Assembly: GCF_012913485.1 (NCBI RefSeq)
Contig: NZ_CP051774.1
Coordinates: 806,001-870,000, forward strand
Direction of reading: 5' to 3'
Length of the DNA: 64,000 nucleotides
From: Luteolibacter luteus
Lineage (GTDB): Bacteria > Verrucomicrobiota > Verrucomicrobiia > Verrucomicrobiales > Akkermansiaceae
Both the position numbers and the translations under genes were made by a program. The notes beneath the pieces were generated by a model that made no database searches, was not told where the DNA came from, and saw nothing but the letters and a program-made list of their open reading frames with translations. Below are positions 54,580 through 59,945 of this stretch, one piece after another; the first letter of the stretch is position 1, and each line of letters starts with the position of its first letter.

Positions 54580-56055
54580 ATGTTCCCGGAACTCAAAGCC
54601 CAAAAACTCCAGCACATCACCCGCCGGCGCTTCCTGCGCGATTGCCCGGCTGGCATCGGTGCCTTGTGGATGGCCTCTCAGGGACTCTCCTCCGCAGCGG
54701 GAAAGCTGAAGATTTCTCATGATCCCAGCGCGCCCCTAGCACCGCTGCTGCCCGGTTTCGCGCCGAAAGCAAAGCGGGTGATCTACCTGCACATGGATGG
54801 GGCACCGAGCCAGCTCGAGCTCTTCGACTACAAGCCGCAGCTGGTGCGCCACAATGGCAAGGAGTGCCCGAAGGAGTATCTGGAAGGCCAACGATTTGCT
54901 TTCATCCAAGGAGTGCCGAAGATGCTCGGTCCGCAGTTCGAGTTCAAGCAGCACGGCCAATCCGGAGCATGGGTTTCCGACCGCCTGCCGGAGCTGGCGA
55001 AGCACGTGGACAAGCTCTGTTTCATCAAGACGATGCAGACGGACCAGTTCAACCATGGTCCCGCGCAGCTCCTTCTCCACACCGGGAACCAGAACCTCGG
55101 CTATCCCGCGATGGGTTCCTGGCTGACCTGGGGGCTCGGCACGGACAACCAGAACCTGCCCGGCTTCATGGTGCTGATCTCCGGCGGACGCTTCCCGCGC
55201 GCGGGTGCCTCGCTGTGGGGTAGCGGCTTCCTGCCCTCCGTCTATCAGGGCGTGCAGTGCCGCTCCGCGGGCGACCCGATCCTGAACACGACCAATCCCG
55301 CCGGGATCAACCGCGAGGTCCGGCGCGCCGCGCTGGATACGCTGGCGAAGCTGAACACGAAGGCGCATCAGGACTTCGGTGATCCGGAAACGATCACCCG
55401 CATCGCCCAGTACGAGATGGCTTACCGCATGCAGGTCTCGGTCCCGGAGGTCATGAGCATCGCCGATGAGCCACAGTACATCCACGAGATGTATGGCACT
55501 CAGCCGGGGAAGGATTCCTTCGCGAACAACTGCCTGCTTGCCCGCCGTCTGGCGGAGAATGGAGTGCGCTTCATCCAGCTCTTCGATTGGGGATGGGACT
55601 CCCATGGCTCGAATGCCGGGGAATCGCTCAACGATGGCTTCGTGAAGAAGTGCCAGGATATCGACAAGGCTATCGGGGCGCTGCTGACCGATCTGGACCA
55701 GCGTGGCATGCTGGAGGACACCCTGGTCATCTGGGGTGGTGAGTTCGGCCGCACGCCGATGCAGGAGAACCGCGGCGGCGGAAACGGCAATGCGTTCACC
55801 GGCCGCGATCACAATCCGAATGCCTTCACCATCTGGATGGCGGGCGCCGGTGTGAAGCCCGGCTTCACCTATGGCGAGACGGATGAAATGGGCTACCATG
55901 TCGCATCCAACCCGGTGCACCTCCGTGACCTCCACGCGACGATGCTCCACCTCTTCGGCTTCGAGCACCAGAGGCTGGCCTATCCTTTCCAAGGGCTCGA
56001 TCAGAAGCTCACCGGTGTGAAGCCTGCGAAGGTGGTGAAGGGCATCCTCGCTTGA
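54580..56055 (+). CDS. DUF1501 family protein with twin-arginine leader (second copy)
   Basis: The 491-residue protein is a paralogue of the one at 41075-42601. It has a twin-arginine motif [52 protein letters not shown] and NPNAFTIWMAGAGVKPG. It starts 9 bases after the DUF1549/1553 gene. It is the last gene of the ECF operon; no clear terminator follows. Confidence 0.92.
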   Translation: MFPELKAQKLQHITRRRFLRDCPAGIGALWMASQGLSSAAGKLKISHDPSAPLAPLLPGFAPKAKRVIYLHMDGAPSQLELFDYKPQLVRHNGKECPKEYLEGQRFAFIQGVPKMLGPQFEFKQHGQSGAWVSDRLPELAKHVDKLCFIKTMQTDQFNHGPAQLLLHTGNQNLGYPAMGSWLTWGLGTDNQNLPGFMVLISGGRFPRAGASLWGSGFLPSVYQGVQCRSAGDPILNTTNPAGINREVRRAALDTLAKLNTKAHQDFGDPETITRIAQYEMAYRMQVSVPEVMSIADEPQYIHEMYGTQPGKDSFANNCLLARRLAENGVRFIQLFDWGWDSHGSNAGESLNDGFVKKCQDIDKAIGALLTDLDQRGMLEDTLVIWGGEFGRTPMQENRGGGNGNAFTGRDHNPNAFTIWMAGAGVKPGFTYGETDEMGYHVASNPVHLRDLHATMLHLFGFEHQRLAYPFQGLDQKLTGVKPAKVVKGILA

Positions 56056-56143: not shown

Positions 56144-57748
56144 ATGTCTTCTTCCATCACCCTTTCCGATGTCACGTGGCTCACTCCGGAAGGCCGCCCG
56201 GTCTTCTCCAATCTCAATCTGAGCTTCGGAACCGAGCAGGCTGGCCTCGTCGGACGCAATGGCGTGGGAAAGACCACGCTGCTCAAACTCATCACCGGTG
56301 AGCTTCGGCCTGCGTCAGGGAAGATATCCGTCCACGGAAGCTTGGGGCTACTGCGCCAGACCGTACAGGTCGATGCCCAGGAGAACATCGCAGATCTATT
56401 CGGCGTGGGCGATAGCCTCGCCCTCCTGCGACGCGCGGAAAGCGGCGAAGCCAGCATGGAAGAACTTCCCGACACGGATTGGACCCTCGAGGGCAGGATG
56501 CTCTCGGCACTTTCCCGCATCGGACTGGATGCCGAACCCGAGACGCTGCTGGCGAAGCTCTCCGGTGGCCAGCGCACCCGCGCCAGCCTCGCTGCAATGA
56601 TCTTCGCCGAGCCGGACTTCCTGCTGCTCGATGAGCCCACCAACAACCTGGACCGCGAAGGCAGAAGCGCCCTTGTGAGCTTTCTTTCGAAGTGGCGTGG
56701 TGGTTCGATCGTGGTGAGCCATGATCGCGATCTACTCGAGACGATGGACTCCATCGTCGAACTGACCACGCTCGGTGCCACACGTTACGGCGGCAATTGG
56801 AGCCACTATCGCGAGCTGAAATCACTCGAGCTTTCCGCCGCGCAGCACGAGCTGGCCGATGCCGAGAAGCGCATCGCGGATGTAGCCAAAAGCGTCCAAA
56901 CCACTGCGGAACGAAAAGCCCGCAAGGATAGCGCCGGCCAACGCACCGCAGCAAAGGGAGGCATCCCCCGCATCGCGCTGGGTCTGATGAAGAACCGCAG
57001 TGAAAGCACCAGCGGCGAAAATGCCCGCTTGGCCGAGCGCCTGCGAAGCCAAGCACAGGAAGCTGCCGCGTCAGCCCGCGAGCGCATCGAGATTCTCCAG
57101 CCGCTTTCCCTGGAGCTGCCCCCGACGGGTCTAGCTCCGGGCAAGGCCGTGCTCAGCGTGGACTCGGTGACGGTCGGCTATAAGGAGGGCATGCCTATCA
57201 TCCGCGACTTATCCTTCGAGATCAGCGGACCGGAGCGCCTGGCAGTGAGCGGCGCGAATGGCTATGGCAAGACGACCCTCTTGAATCTCATCACCGGTCA
57301 GCTTCCGCCATGGAGCGGCAAGGCGAAGATCCACACCCGCTTCGCCATGCTGGACCAACGGGCAAGCCTCCTCGATCCGGAGATCTCCATCCGCGACAAC
57401 TTCGCACGCATCAATCCGGACACCGATGAGAATGCCTGCCGCGCCTCGCTCGCACGCTTCATGTTCCGGGCAGATGCCGCCCTTCAGATCATTTCCACGC
57501 TCAGCGGCGGCCAATTGCTCCGCGCTGCGCTGGCCTGCGTGCTGGGTGGCCCACAGCCACCTCCCCTTCTGATCCTCGATGAGCCAACAAACCACCTCGA
57601 CATCGACTCGATCGAATCCATCGAAGCAGGCCTCCGTGCCTATGATGGGGCCCTGCTGGTAGTGAGCCATGATGAGTCCTTCCTGGAGGCTATCGGGATC
57701 ACACGTCGCATCGAAATCCCCGCACAGGGGATCACGCGCCCTTCGTGA
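56144..57748 (+). CDS. ABC-F family ATPase
   Basis: The 534-residue cytosolic protein has two ATP-binding cassettes without membrane segments: Walker A GRNGVGKTTLL and GANGYGKTTLL, signatures LSGGQRTRASLA and LSGGQLLRAALA, and Walker B LLLDEPTNNLD and LILDEPTNHLD. A charged linker of ~90 residues joins them. ABC-F proteins act on the ribosome or protect it from antibiotics; the subgroup is not clear. It overlaps the next gene's end by 17 bases, tail to tail. Confidence 0.95.
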   Translation: MSSSITLSDVTWLTPEGRPVFSNLNLSFGTEQAGLVGRNGVGKTTLLKLITGELRPASGKISVHGSLGLLRQTVQVDAQENIADLFGVGDSLALLRRAESGEASMEELPDTDWTLEGRMLSALSRIGLDAEPETLLAKLSGGQRTRASLAAMIFAEPDFLLLDEPTNNLDREGRSALVSFLSKWRGGSIVVSHDRDLLETMDSIVELTTLGATRYGGNWSHYRELKSLELSAAQHELADAEKRIADVAKSVQTTAERKARKDSAGQRTAAKGGIPRIALGLMKNRSESTSGENARLAERLRSQAQEAAASARERIEILQPLSLELPPTGLAPGKAVLSVDSVTVGYKEGMPIIRDLSFEISGPERLAVSGANGYGKTTLLNLITGQLPPWSGKAKIHTRFAMLDQRASLLDPEISIRDNFARINPDTDENACRASLARFMFRADAALQIISTLSGGQLLRAALACVLGGPQPPPLLILDEPTNHLDIDSIESIEAGLRAYDGALLVVSHDESFLEAIGITRRIEIPAQGITRPS

Positions 57749-58262
57749 GGTAATAGAAGACGTAGTGCTGGATCGTTCCCGCCAGCTCCTTCGTGTCCGC
57801 GTGGGAATACACCGCGCCGATCTTTTCCGCGGCTCTTCTTGAGCGCTGATTGTCCTTTCCGATGTGCAGCCACACGCGGTCCGCCCATTGATAGGCGTGA
57901 TCCAGCATGAGGCGCTTCATCTCGCGATTGTATTCGCCGCCCCAGTAGCTGCGCGAGAGGAAGGTGAAACCGATCGCAATCTCCTTCTTCGCAGGATCCC
58001 AATCATAGTAGCGAGACGAGCCGATCATCTCGCTCGTCTTATTGTCGTAGACGACCAAGGTCCCGCGCGACTCCATCGCGTGATGGAACCATCGTTCGAA
58101 GACCTCCCGCTGGTAGCGCGTCGGCTCCGGATGTTGCTCCCAGATCAGCGGATCGGAAGCCACCGCATGCAGGGCTTCGAAATCAGATGCCAGCAGCGGA
58201 CGTAGCGTGATAAGTTCACCTTCCAGGGTGGGCTGGAGATCGAAGTCGGGGCCGGGATTCAT
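57732..58262 (-). CDS. GNAT family N-acetyltransferase
   Basis: The 176-residue protein is a RimJ/RimL-like GNAT: ITLRPLLASDFEALHAV at the start, MIGSSRYYDWDP, a IAIGFTFLSRSYWGGEYNREMKRLML segment forming the pyrophosphate-binding loop region, and HIGKDNQRSRRAAEKIGA. It uses acetyl-CoA; the target is unknown. The 3' end overlaps the ABC-F gene by 17 bases. Confidence 0.93.
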   Translation of the reverse strand: MNPGPDFDLQPTLEGELITLRPLLASDFEALHAVASDPLIWEQHPEPTRYQREVFERWFHHAMESRGTLVVYDNKTSEMIGSSRYYDWDPAKKEIAIGFTFLSRSYWGGEYNREMKRLMLDHAYQWADRVWLHIGKDNQRSRRAAEKIGAVYSHADTKELAGTIQHYVFYYLTKGA

Positions 58263-58366
58263 CGCTGGGCGAACTTGAAGGAGCCACGGCAGCGCATCAA
58301 GGGGGTCGGCGAAAAAAAATCCGCGCTGCGAGGGGTGGGATCGTCGCGAAACGTTGGTCCGGTGAA

Positions 58367-59053
58367 ATGCGGCTTTATCGCTTCATCCCCCTGCTCCTCG
58401 CGCTCGCCACCCTTTCCTGTCGGGAGAAGGTGCGAACGAGTCCCCCGTCATCCGGAACACAGCCATCCTCAGCTCCCGCCGCATTTCCTCCAGTCCCGCC
58501 ACTAAAAGTCGCCAGTATCGACATACAGCGACTCTTCAAGGGCTATTACCGGACTGAGGAGATCCAGAAGGAGTTGAACGTGGAGCAAGTGGCCATCAAG
58601 GGCGAGAGCGATGCCCGGCTCGAAACCTTGCGGTCCATCGAAACGGAGCTCCAAAACTCTGCGAGGCAACTCGCCGATCCCGCGCTGGCCGGATCCGTGA
58701 AGGAGAAGGTTGCCCAAGACCGCGCCCTACGCCGCGAGGAAGCCATCGCCTTGGAGCGCGCGCGACGTGAATTTATCGACATCAAGGGGAAACAGATCAA
58801 CGAGAAGGCAGCCGCCCAAATGAGGGGGATCGTCGCGGAGATCCGGAAAAGCATCGAGGACATGGCCCGGCAGGAGGATTACGACTATGTTTTCGACAGG
58901 TCCGGCCTAACCACCTCGCAGGTGCCCTTCTTCCTCTTCAGCACGGAAAGCACGGATCTCACGGCGGCCATGCTGGAGAAGCTCAACCGCGATCACTCCA
59001 TGCAAACGAAGACTGGAGAAGCCACACCGGATCCGCTAGAAGGCAAAGATTGA
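58367..59053 (+). CDS. Skp/OmpH-like lipoprotein
   Basis: The 228-residue protein has a lipobox TLSC (Cys18), a Pro/Ser-rich linker, and an OmpH/Skp domain (~48-200) beginning VASIDIQRLFKGYYRTEEIQ. A long charged coiled coil follows and DYDYVFDRSGL ends the domain. Skp chaperones outer-membrane proteins in the periplasm. A lipid-anchored version is unusual. Its stop overlaps the start of the following sigma factor gene (TGATG). Confidence 0.87.
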   Translation: MRLYRFIPLLLALATLSCREKVRTSPPSSGTQPSSAPAAFPPVPPLKVASIDIQRLFKGYYRTEEIQKELNVEQVAIKGESDARLETLRSIETELQNSARQLADPALAGSVKEKVAQDRALRREEAIALERARREFIDIKGKQINEKAAAQMRGIVAEIRKSIEDMARQEDYDYVFDRSGLTTSQVPFFLFSTESTDLTAAMLEKLNRDHSMQTKTGEATPDPLEGKD

Positions 59054-59589
59054 TGGAGGAGGAGATCGTCACGCTCACCCGCGACATGATCGCGTGCAAG
59101 GAAGAGGCCTGGTGCCGCTTCCACGAGCGCTACTATCCCCTCTTGTTGGCCCAGGCGATCGCCCGAGGCATTCCTGCTGCGGATGCGCCGGATATCGTCC
59201 AAGGCGTCTATCTGCGCGTGCTCCGCCATGGAAAAGCCTTTCGCGACAGCGGAAATCTGGAGGCATGGCTCGCCTGCCTGACTCGCTGCGAGACGATCGA
59301 TGCCGTCCGTCGTTCAAAGCGGCGCAGTTGGCTTGGAGAGCGCTTCCAGCAATGGCAAGAGGCGAGACGAGACGTTCATGCCGCGGATATCACGGATCTT
59401 GATCAAGCGCTAGAGAGCCTCGACGACAGCGAGCGCCGGCTTCTCTCCCGTCACTATCTCGAAGGCTGGTCCCAAGAGGAGATCGCCTCCGAGCAATCCA
59501 CTAGCACCAAGGCCGTGGAGTCCAAGCTAGCCCGACTTCGGCGCAGACTTCGCGGTGAACTGGAGAACCTCAACACCTGTAAATCATGA
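59053..59589 (+). CDS. ECF RNA polymerase sigma factor (coupled to Skp-like lipoprotein)
   Basis: The 178-residue protein has region 2 with FHERYYPLLLAQAIARGIPAADAPDIVQ and WLACLTRCETIDAVRRSKRR, and region 4 with LDDSERRLLSRHYLEGWSQEE and KAVESKLARLRRRL. The ATG at 59053 overlaps the upstream stop. The next gene overlaps by ATGA. It is not the same subgroup as the FecR-linked sigma factor. Confidence 0.92.
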   Translation: MEEEIVTLTRDMIACKEEAWCRFHERYYPLLLAQAIARGIPAADAPDIVQGVYLRVLRHGKAFRDSGNLEAWLACLTRCETIDAVRRSKRRSWLGERFQQWQEARRDVHAADITDLDQALESLDDSERRLLSRHYLEGWSQEEIASEQSTSTKAVESKLARLRRRLRGELENLNTCKS

Positions 59590-59945
59590 CAAGCCGCGAC
59601 CACACCGCCGACCGGGTCTGGGAGCAGACCCTGCAACAGATCCGCAGCACCCGCGCCCGGCGCAGGCTGCGCCGCACCGCGCTCACCGCCGGTGCCACGG
59701 CCGCCCTCGCGTGCGCCGGGCTTTTGTTCCCCGCAGGCAGACCTTCCGCCGTTCAGCCGCCGGAAATCGTCCTTCGTGTCGACCCGCCCACCGAAGCAGG
59801 GAGGGCAACGCTCGTCGCCTTGATCTGGCGTGATGGCCATCCGGCCTTGGAGCAACTGGATCCCGATGAGCTGGGCTACCCGGACATCCCCTTCAGCCTG
59901 GAGCCCGTGCTGGCCTACTCGGACGCCCGGTGGGACGCGTTTTGA
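59586..59945 (+). CDS. Small single-pass membrane protein, candidate anti-sigma factor
   Basis: The 119-residue protein has a basic N-terminus of ~30 residues, one membrane segment (RTALTAGATAALACAGLLF, about 32-50), and a ~70-residue periplasmic tail. It has no zinc-anti-sigma HxxxCxxC motif and matches no family I know. Its ATGA overlap with the sigma factor and its topology suggest an anti-sigma role; this is inference. Confidence 0.6.
   Translation: MTSRDHTADRVWEQTLQQIRSTRARRRLRRTALTAGATAALACAGLLFPAGRPSAVQPPEIVLRVDPPTEAGRATLVALIWRDGHPALEQLDPDELGYPDIPFSLEPVLAYSDARWDAF

Follow-up and report, generated by a model that had tools for sequence, protein, structure and literature searches.

The window analysed here, 64,000 nucleotides of Luteolibacter luteus (contig NZ_CP051774.1, genome G000 below), contains a gene for a Skp/OmpH-family periplasmic protein followed by an ECF sigma factor gene and by the gene of a small membrane protein, here called X. 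The question raised by this locus is why a chaperone family that handles unfolded outer-membrane proteins is built into a sigma factor operon, preceded by a promoter-like element that in its exact form is unique to this site in G000. To our knowledge, the surveillance of outer-membrane protein folding in bacteria without the enterobacterial sigma-E relay is largely open, and the Verrucomicrobiota have been little studied in that respect.

The reading favoured here, at a probability of roughly 0.55, is that the locus encodes an autoregulated envelope-stress switch, with an anti-sigma role for X and a sensor role for the Skp-like protein. The three genes would form one operon, turned on by its own sigma factor. 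X would cross the inner membrane and hold the sigma factor by its short basic cytoplasmic helix, and the Skp-like protein would serve in the periplasm as a sensor of folding state acting on the periplasmic tail of X, as either an inhibitor or an activator of the switch. On failure of outer-membrane protein folding, unfolded clients would alter the interaction between Skp and X and free the sigma factor, which would transcribe mainly its own operon, so that more of the Skp-like chaperone and of X would be made and the switch would reset. If this reading is true, the locus would represent a compact three-part sensor of folding load, of a size that could be reconstructed in a laboratory strain, and an example of a sigma/anti-sigma pair whose periplasmic partner has been swapped in evolution.

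Operon layout and conservation of the linkage

The coordinates of the locus are given in Table 1. The first-pass annotation had described three genes overlapping stop to start, and the open reading frames and junctions agree with that description: ompH and the sigma factor gene overlap by one base (TGATG), and the sigma factor gene and the X gene by four (ATGA). An alternative start for the sigma factor, a TTG at 59050, was present in the list of open reading frames. Bacterial genes often overlap stop to start, and it is the conserved linkage, rather than the overlaps themselves, that goes beyond chance expectation.

Table 1. Positions of the operon, its promoter-like element and the parts of X, in window coordinates
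Feature	Position	Strand	Remarks
Putative ECF-type promoter	58329..58356	+	-35 CGAGGGGT at 58329-58336, 15-base spacer, -10 CGTTG at 58352-58356, 10 bases before ATG
Skp/OmpH-family periplasmic protein gene	58367..59053	+	228 aa, PF03938
ECF sigma factor gene	59053..59589	+	178 aa from ATG at 59053
Protein X gene, candidate anti-sigma factor	59586..59945	+	119 aa, single-TM
X cytoplasmic basic helix, residues 1-31	59586..59678	+	Candidate sigma-binding part; model helix 6-47 continuous with TM
X transmembrane segment, residues 32-50	59679..59735	+	Hydropathy scan
X periplasmic beta-hairpin, residues 76-91	59811..59858	+	Model strands 76-82 and 85-91
X conserved C-terminal tail, residues 92-119	59859..59942	+	LGxxELxFSLxPV core, Phe end

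The sigma factor matched Pfam families Sigma70_r2 (E 4.5e-11) and Sigma70_r4_2 (E 2.5e-11), both over cut-off, and TIGR02937 (E 3.2e-21; 75.7 bits, cut-off 42.9). Placement in the Rhodopirellula/Verrucomicrobium subfamily TIGR02989 was rejected at 61.6 bits against a curated cut-off of 124.55.

X was found in 10 of the 97 genomes of a first family sample, and in nine of these, G000 included, it lay one sigma factor gene downstream of an ompH gene. A profile search with the sigma factor alignment in 260 family genomes gave 19 genomes matched at E 1e-22, 14 of them with more than 200 bits (G000, G006, G020, G030, G036, G042, G056, G061, G071, G093, G339, G346, G349 and G364). Left out were G068 in the first X search, G327 and G408 in the X profile search, and 13 weak matches (E 7.8e-4 to 0.0064). 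All 14 loci had ompH immediately upstream of the sigma factor gene and X downstream, with ompH cut by a contig end in G093 and G364, and with the X of G020, missed by the X profile, assigned from its position and a weak 22-bit match. The first-pass annotation had staked its proposal on interaction as well as on conserved linkage in related genomes, and the linkage was borne out, the sigma clade lying between ompH and X in 14/14. The linkage spans four genera, and in a class-wide sample of 384 genomes all matches above 200 bits (8 genomes) fell within the same family, the next match scoring 122 bits. The 14 trio sigma factors formed a single clade (support 100/98) in a tree of 21 sigma factors; both this tree and the C-terminus control described below were made without L156 (G374), a near copy of L155.

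The sigma clade had no match in the same-genus genomes G019, G039, G048, G079 and G085, and this sparse distribution (14/260), which shows the module to be dispensable, counts against the full switch reading. Remnants resembling the C-terminal half of X were observed in G328 (L146, 5032-5427) and, weakly, in G267 (L147, 5543-5764), in both cases without this sigma factor or a trio ompH. The G328 remnant adjoins the same downstream isomerase gene as the window trio and, taken with the same-genus genomes that have no sigma gene, suggests loss.

The isomerase gene is also common to the G006 and G071 loci. Directly upstream of the trio in G006, G030, G056 and G071 is a counterpart (91-92% identical) of window gene 54580-56055, which we take to be of DUF1501 type. 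In the window that gene is separated from the trio by two others, one for an ABC-F and one for a GNAT protein (56144-58262), and both are absent from that position in the other four genomes; the ABC-F gene scored 352.7 bits with an NCBIfam ribosomal-protection-like model, below its cut-off of 380. The gene order in G020 is ompH, ompH, lpxD, ompH, sigma, X, ompH (L154, 7848-12626, minus strand), which ties the module to the skp-lpxD region. Since duplicates arise easily in an ompH cluster by lpxD, this arrangement speaks for simple hitch-hiking, in which a sigma-X pair landed by a duplicated skp and the linkage is functionally meaningless. However, the linkage holds in every one of the 14 genomes with the sigma gene and across the four genera while the neighbours differ, the gene upstream of the trio in the window was found in 4/14 loci compared, and a shared promoter precedes ompH. 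Hitch-hiking is thus considered very improbable.

The promoter-like element and the search for a regulon

In the trio loci, an element of the form CGAGGGGT-N15-CGTT ends about 9-14 nt ahead of the ompH ATG, close enough to suggest that the leader is very short or lacking. A first, strict version (GAGGG[AG]T, spacer 13-17, CGTT) derived from 8 loci was present in two of five further trio loci (G346 and G093), and the upstream regions of the other three (G349, G339 and G020) contained the relaxed form alone, G[AG]GGG[AG]T-N15-CGT. This relaxed form was present in all 13 readable trio loci (G364 being without upstream sequence), starting 36-40 bases before the ATG with a fixed 15-base spacer, a count that is descriptive because the form was written after all 13 loci were known. 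The controls are shuffled sequences and other ompH genes: over 2000 sets of shuffled upstream regions the relaxed form appeared in a mean of 0.035 of 13 (maximum 2), and it was found in none of 30 other ompH genes, namely 29 non-trio family loci drawn from a longer list and the housekeeping ompH of G000. The C preceding the relaxed form and all of its non-degenerate positions were invariant in the 13 loci, two positions being degenerate. In G093 the promoter region is on contig C209 and the sigma gene on C248; they were paired by exclusion, C209 being assigned to the trio because the other copy (C199) has upstream DNA resembling that of the housekeeping gene.

As the element accompanies the sigma gene and not ompH in general, autoregulation is the simplest reading. 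Their co-occurrence argues strongly that the trio sigma factor uses the trio promoter, and the operon is very probably regulated by its own sigma factor. This dedicated promoter, together with the G020 trio inside an ompH-ompH-lpxD-[ompH-sigma-X]-ompH cluster, strengthens the earlier proposal of an independent module.

The exact 13-base pattern has a single copy in G000, at this operon. A regulon was sought using CGAGGGGT-N15-CGTTG with up to one mismatch, a stringency that weaker variants would escape, in 14 genomes (9 with the trio and 5 of the same genus without it). Totals compared with a backward control were 6 vs 8 in G000, 104 vs 88 in the 9 trio genomes and 73 vs 55 in the 5 others. 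One-mismatch copies were in excess of this control in G093, which has the trio (26 vs 8), and in G085, which has none (23 vs 9). Nine non-trio matches were inspected (5 in G000, 2 in other trio genomes and 2 in G039) and rejected as regulon members, each being overlapped by an open frame of more than 330 aa on either strand. One of the five in G000, the one-mismatch copy at C1:2137853-2137880 (L150), is followed after 14 bases by the ATG of an open frame that spans 413 aa or more and presumably encodes a PhoD-type phosphatase; this copy may be due to chance and was not counted as regulon. No wider regulon beyond the operon was found at the stringency tested (up to one mismatch, 14 genomes). 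This result is unlike a general envelope stress response, and counts against the full switch reading.

The position of ompH as the first gene behind a conserved promoter also favours the main rival to that reading, in which the Skp-like protein is an output only: the sigma factor and X would be an ordinary ECF/anti-sigma pair sensing something else, and the operon would supply spare Skp. It accords with the status of skp as a sigma-E target in enterobacteria (PMC6737893). We regard this alternative as possible, though on the whole unlikely, for reasons that lie in the proteins themselves.

The Skp-like protein, its replacements and protein X

The Skp-like protein matched OmpH (PF03938) over residues 47-206 (E 1.6e-13; 51.5 bits, gathering cut-off 32.4). 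Its AlphaFold2 model (pLDDT 81.7, pTM 0.61) was closest to SkpA in the T9SS complex (8gl8, E 1.4e-6) and to the solved Skp structures 1sg2 and 1u2m (E about 3e-6, TM 0.28-0.35 by query length), with a weaker match to Caulobacter OmpH (4kqt, E 0.009, TM 0.53/0.70). By family match and predicted structure, it is a member of the Skp family with the Skp fold. The further claim that it is lipid-anchored fared less well. Its signal sequence carries a weak lipobox, TLSC, with Cys18 at 58418-58420, which fits a relaxed but not a strict pattern; this feature is not conserved, the relaxed pattern occurring in 4 and the strict pattern in 1 of 12 trio OmpH rows, and a lipid anchor appears doubtful.

The 13 trio OmpH proteins tested did not form one clade. 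Forcing their monophyly cost 153 log-likelihood units (AU p 9.28e-07; the OmpH trees exclude the truncated G364 gene, and the G093 rows were included in the test). The OmpH tree has long branches, by which a test of this kind can be led astray, but in G020 and G093 the paired sequences are close. The trio OmpH of G020 grouped with the housekeeping OmpH of the same genome (support 94/77, 88% identical; with G007, 97/87), and that of G042 with the housekeeping OmpH of a same-genus genome (99/100). The two ompH copies of G093 are 96.5% identical in DNA over 375 bases, with the same reading across the shared protein core. Contigs C199, C209, C248 and C245 of G093 (L065, L066, L060 and L067) all break inside these two nearly identical genes, pointing to a recent copy or gene conversion. 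From the lack of monophyly and these three pairs, it appears that the housekeeping skp gave rise to a new Skp partner, or that such a partner was recruited, on more than one occasion. Over 21 pairs from 7 genomes, housekeeping OmpH proteins were 75-95% identical and trio OmpH proteins 33-56%, indicating two different constraints; apart from renewal, the trio Skp is, on these comparisons, a fast-changing protein. Renewal from the housekeeping gene fits the need for a plain working chaperone, as expected if Skp were an output only, but against that rival the trio Skp diverges far more than the housekeeping copy.

It is also at odds with an output-only role that another secreted protein fills the same position beside related sigma factors. 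A layout of secreted protein, sigma factor and X-like protein was recognised by visual inspection at family loci in G372, G374, G385 and G405 and in second loci of G056, G071 and G364, and in all seven loci opened (L163-L169) among 19 further genomes with matches class-wide, where a signal sequence was evident in six of the seven partners. OmpH was not found as the partner in those family and class-wide loci. One of six partners (E 0.02) and four of seven (E 0.0018-0.12) matched Secretin_N; as every match was below cut-off, the name 'secretin-like' was rejected in favour of weakly secretin-N-like, and one such partner gave no match when compared with the PDB. The L161 partner looks different from the others. 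Loci L155-L162 and L163-L169 make up a recurring Verrucomicrobiota layout of a weakly secretin-N-like secreted protein, an ECF sigma factor and a single-TM protein. The profiles of X and the X-like proteins matched at 96% (E 3.6e-9), over the basic helix, TM segment and linker only, a similarity that may partly be one of composition. If this is read correctly, the secreted partner in the Skp position would have been swapped during the evolution of the sigma-X pairs.

X has one hydrophobic segment, with 9 positive and 3 negative charges before it and 5 and 12 after it, which places the N-terminus inside; hydropathy and charge gave this N-in single-TM topology for 13 of 13 X proteins. The basic helix has the consensus VWxxTLxxVRxTRxRRRxRR (alignment A3, 13 X proteins). 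The first-pass annotation stated that the candidate anti-sigma factor has no known motif. This holds for Pfam, no family being over cut-off in the 13 X proteins, but the build of X is conserved, and distantly related proteins occur next to related sigma factors. The X model gave no PDB fold match at E 0.001. By its position, its topology and precedent, X is probably an anti-sigma factor; its cytoplasmic part, of about 30 residues in one model helix, counts against the full switch reading.

Aromatic C-termini are typical of outer-membrane proteins. The last residue was F, W or Y in 10/14 Skp-linked X proteins and in 1/14 X-like relatives (0/7 in the family and 1/7, L163, class-wide), with a Fisher p of 0.0013 that overstates independence because the X rows are related (G036 and G349 being near copies). 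That the aromatic tail accompanies the Skp partner is a further point against Skp as an output only, and its absence from 4/14 counts against the full switch reading as well. From the swapping of partners and this tail, we infer that the Skp-like protein may be the sensor and not a product alone.

In the monomer model of X, confidence falls along the tail after the hairpin, to below 50 at residues 109-115 and 117-119. DegS reads the C-termini of unfolded outer-membrane proteins in E. coli (PMC6737893). The aromatic tail, its low-confidence model and the DegS precedent together lead to the speculation that the tail is a decoy. In such a chaperone-titration switch, the tail of X would mimic the C-terminus of an unfolded outer-membrane protein and the Skp-like protein would read folding load by choosing between its true clients and the decoy; the housekeeping skp would rewrite the sensor gene repeatedly, keeping its client range matched to that of the housekeeping chaperone, and the sigma-X pair would stay. 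This version is put forward tentatively and is judged unlikely.

The same precedent allows for proteolysis as in the sigma-E pathway, with a PDZ or C-terminal protease reading the aromatic end of X and the Skp-like protein shielding or presenting X. The low-confidence tail and its frequent aromatic end would suit a substrate of this kind, and in E. coli the pathway is kept off by RseB while it is bound to RseA (PMC6737893). However, a scan of the trio and three neighbouring genes, six window genes in all, gave no protease family over cut-off, and four of the 14 X proteins lack an aromatic end; a proteolytic switch is considered quite improbable.

Comparison with known systems

ECF modules with periplasmic partners are already known, and Skp was not found as such a partner in the literature searched. 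Likewise, no report of a trio of ECF sigma factor, Skp and membrane protein, or of Luteolibacter sigma factors, was found in that literature, which was mostly open-access, the large ECF classification lying outside it. The trio copy shares its family and fold with the housekeeping Skp/OmpH, its probable repeated source, and differs in that the housekeeping gene is without the trio promoter.

In CpxP/CpxA, a chaperone-like periplasmic protein, encoded by one of the system's own target genes, acts back on an inner-membrane regulator. The logic proposed for the trio is the same, but CpxP/CpxA is a two-component system instead of a sigma/anti-sigma pair, and CpxP is Spy-like and not Skp-like. FecI-FecR resembles the trio in that an ECF sigma factor lies beside a single-TM protein, and the class relatives of the trio add a further likeness in their weakly secretin-N-like secreted partner. 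The 13 X proteins gave no FecR match, and the scan of six window genes no TonB-dependent receptor. RpoE-RseA-RseB with DegS/RseP is similar to the trio in having an ECF sigma factor, an N-in inner-membrane protein, a periplasmic partner and a presumed outer-membrane protein signal. In contrast, the place of RseB is taken in the trio by Skp itself, a wide regulon was not detected, and the 13 X proteins contained no RseA domain up to E 0.1.

The precedent in build is CnrYXH, the cobalt/nickel ECF module of Cupriavidus metallidurans. A CnrYXH-like trio is also present elsewhere in G000 (C1, about 2611572-2612906; L049 643-1977), with a small TM protein, a PF13801 partner (E 2.5e-14) and an ECF sigma factor. 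In CnrYXH there is a periplasmic partner, and the sigma factor lies in the embrace of a small TM anti-sigma factor until the signal induces its release (PMC4598750, PMC7689651). Like CnrYXH, the trio combines an ECF sigma factor, a small single-TM protein whose cytoplasmic part is short, and a periplasmic partner of helical build. The cytoplasmic domain of CnrY consists of two helices (PMC4598750, PMC7406223), and a 50-aa limit is given for class I anti-sigma domains (PMC7406223). X, with one continuous helix (6-47) in the monomer model and about 30 cytoplasmic residues, is shorter than both the CnrY domain and that limit. PF13801 was absent from the window partner, PF03938 being its sole match up to E 1; the partner is thus of the Skp/OmpH family and not a Metal_resist (PF13801) CnrX, and the trio has no known link to metals and a gene order other than Y-X-H. 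By analogy, the trio plausibly works like CnrYXH and yet stands outside it, with a Skp-family partner and a gene order of its own.
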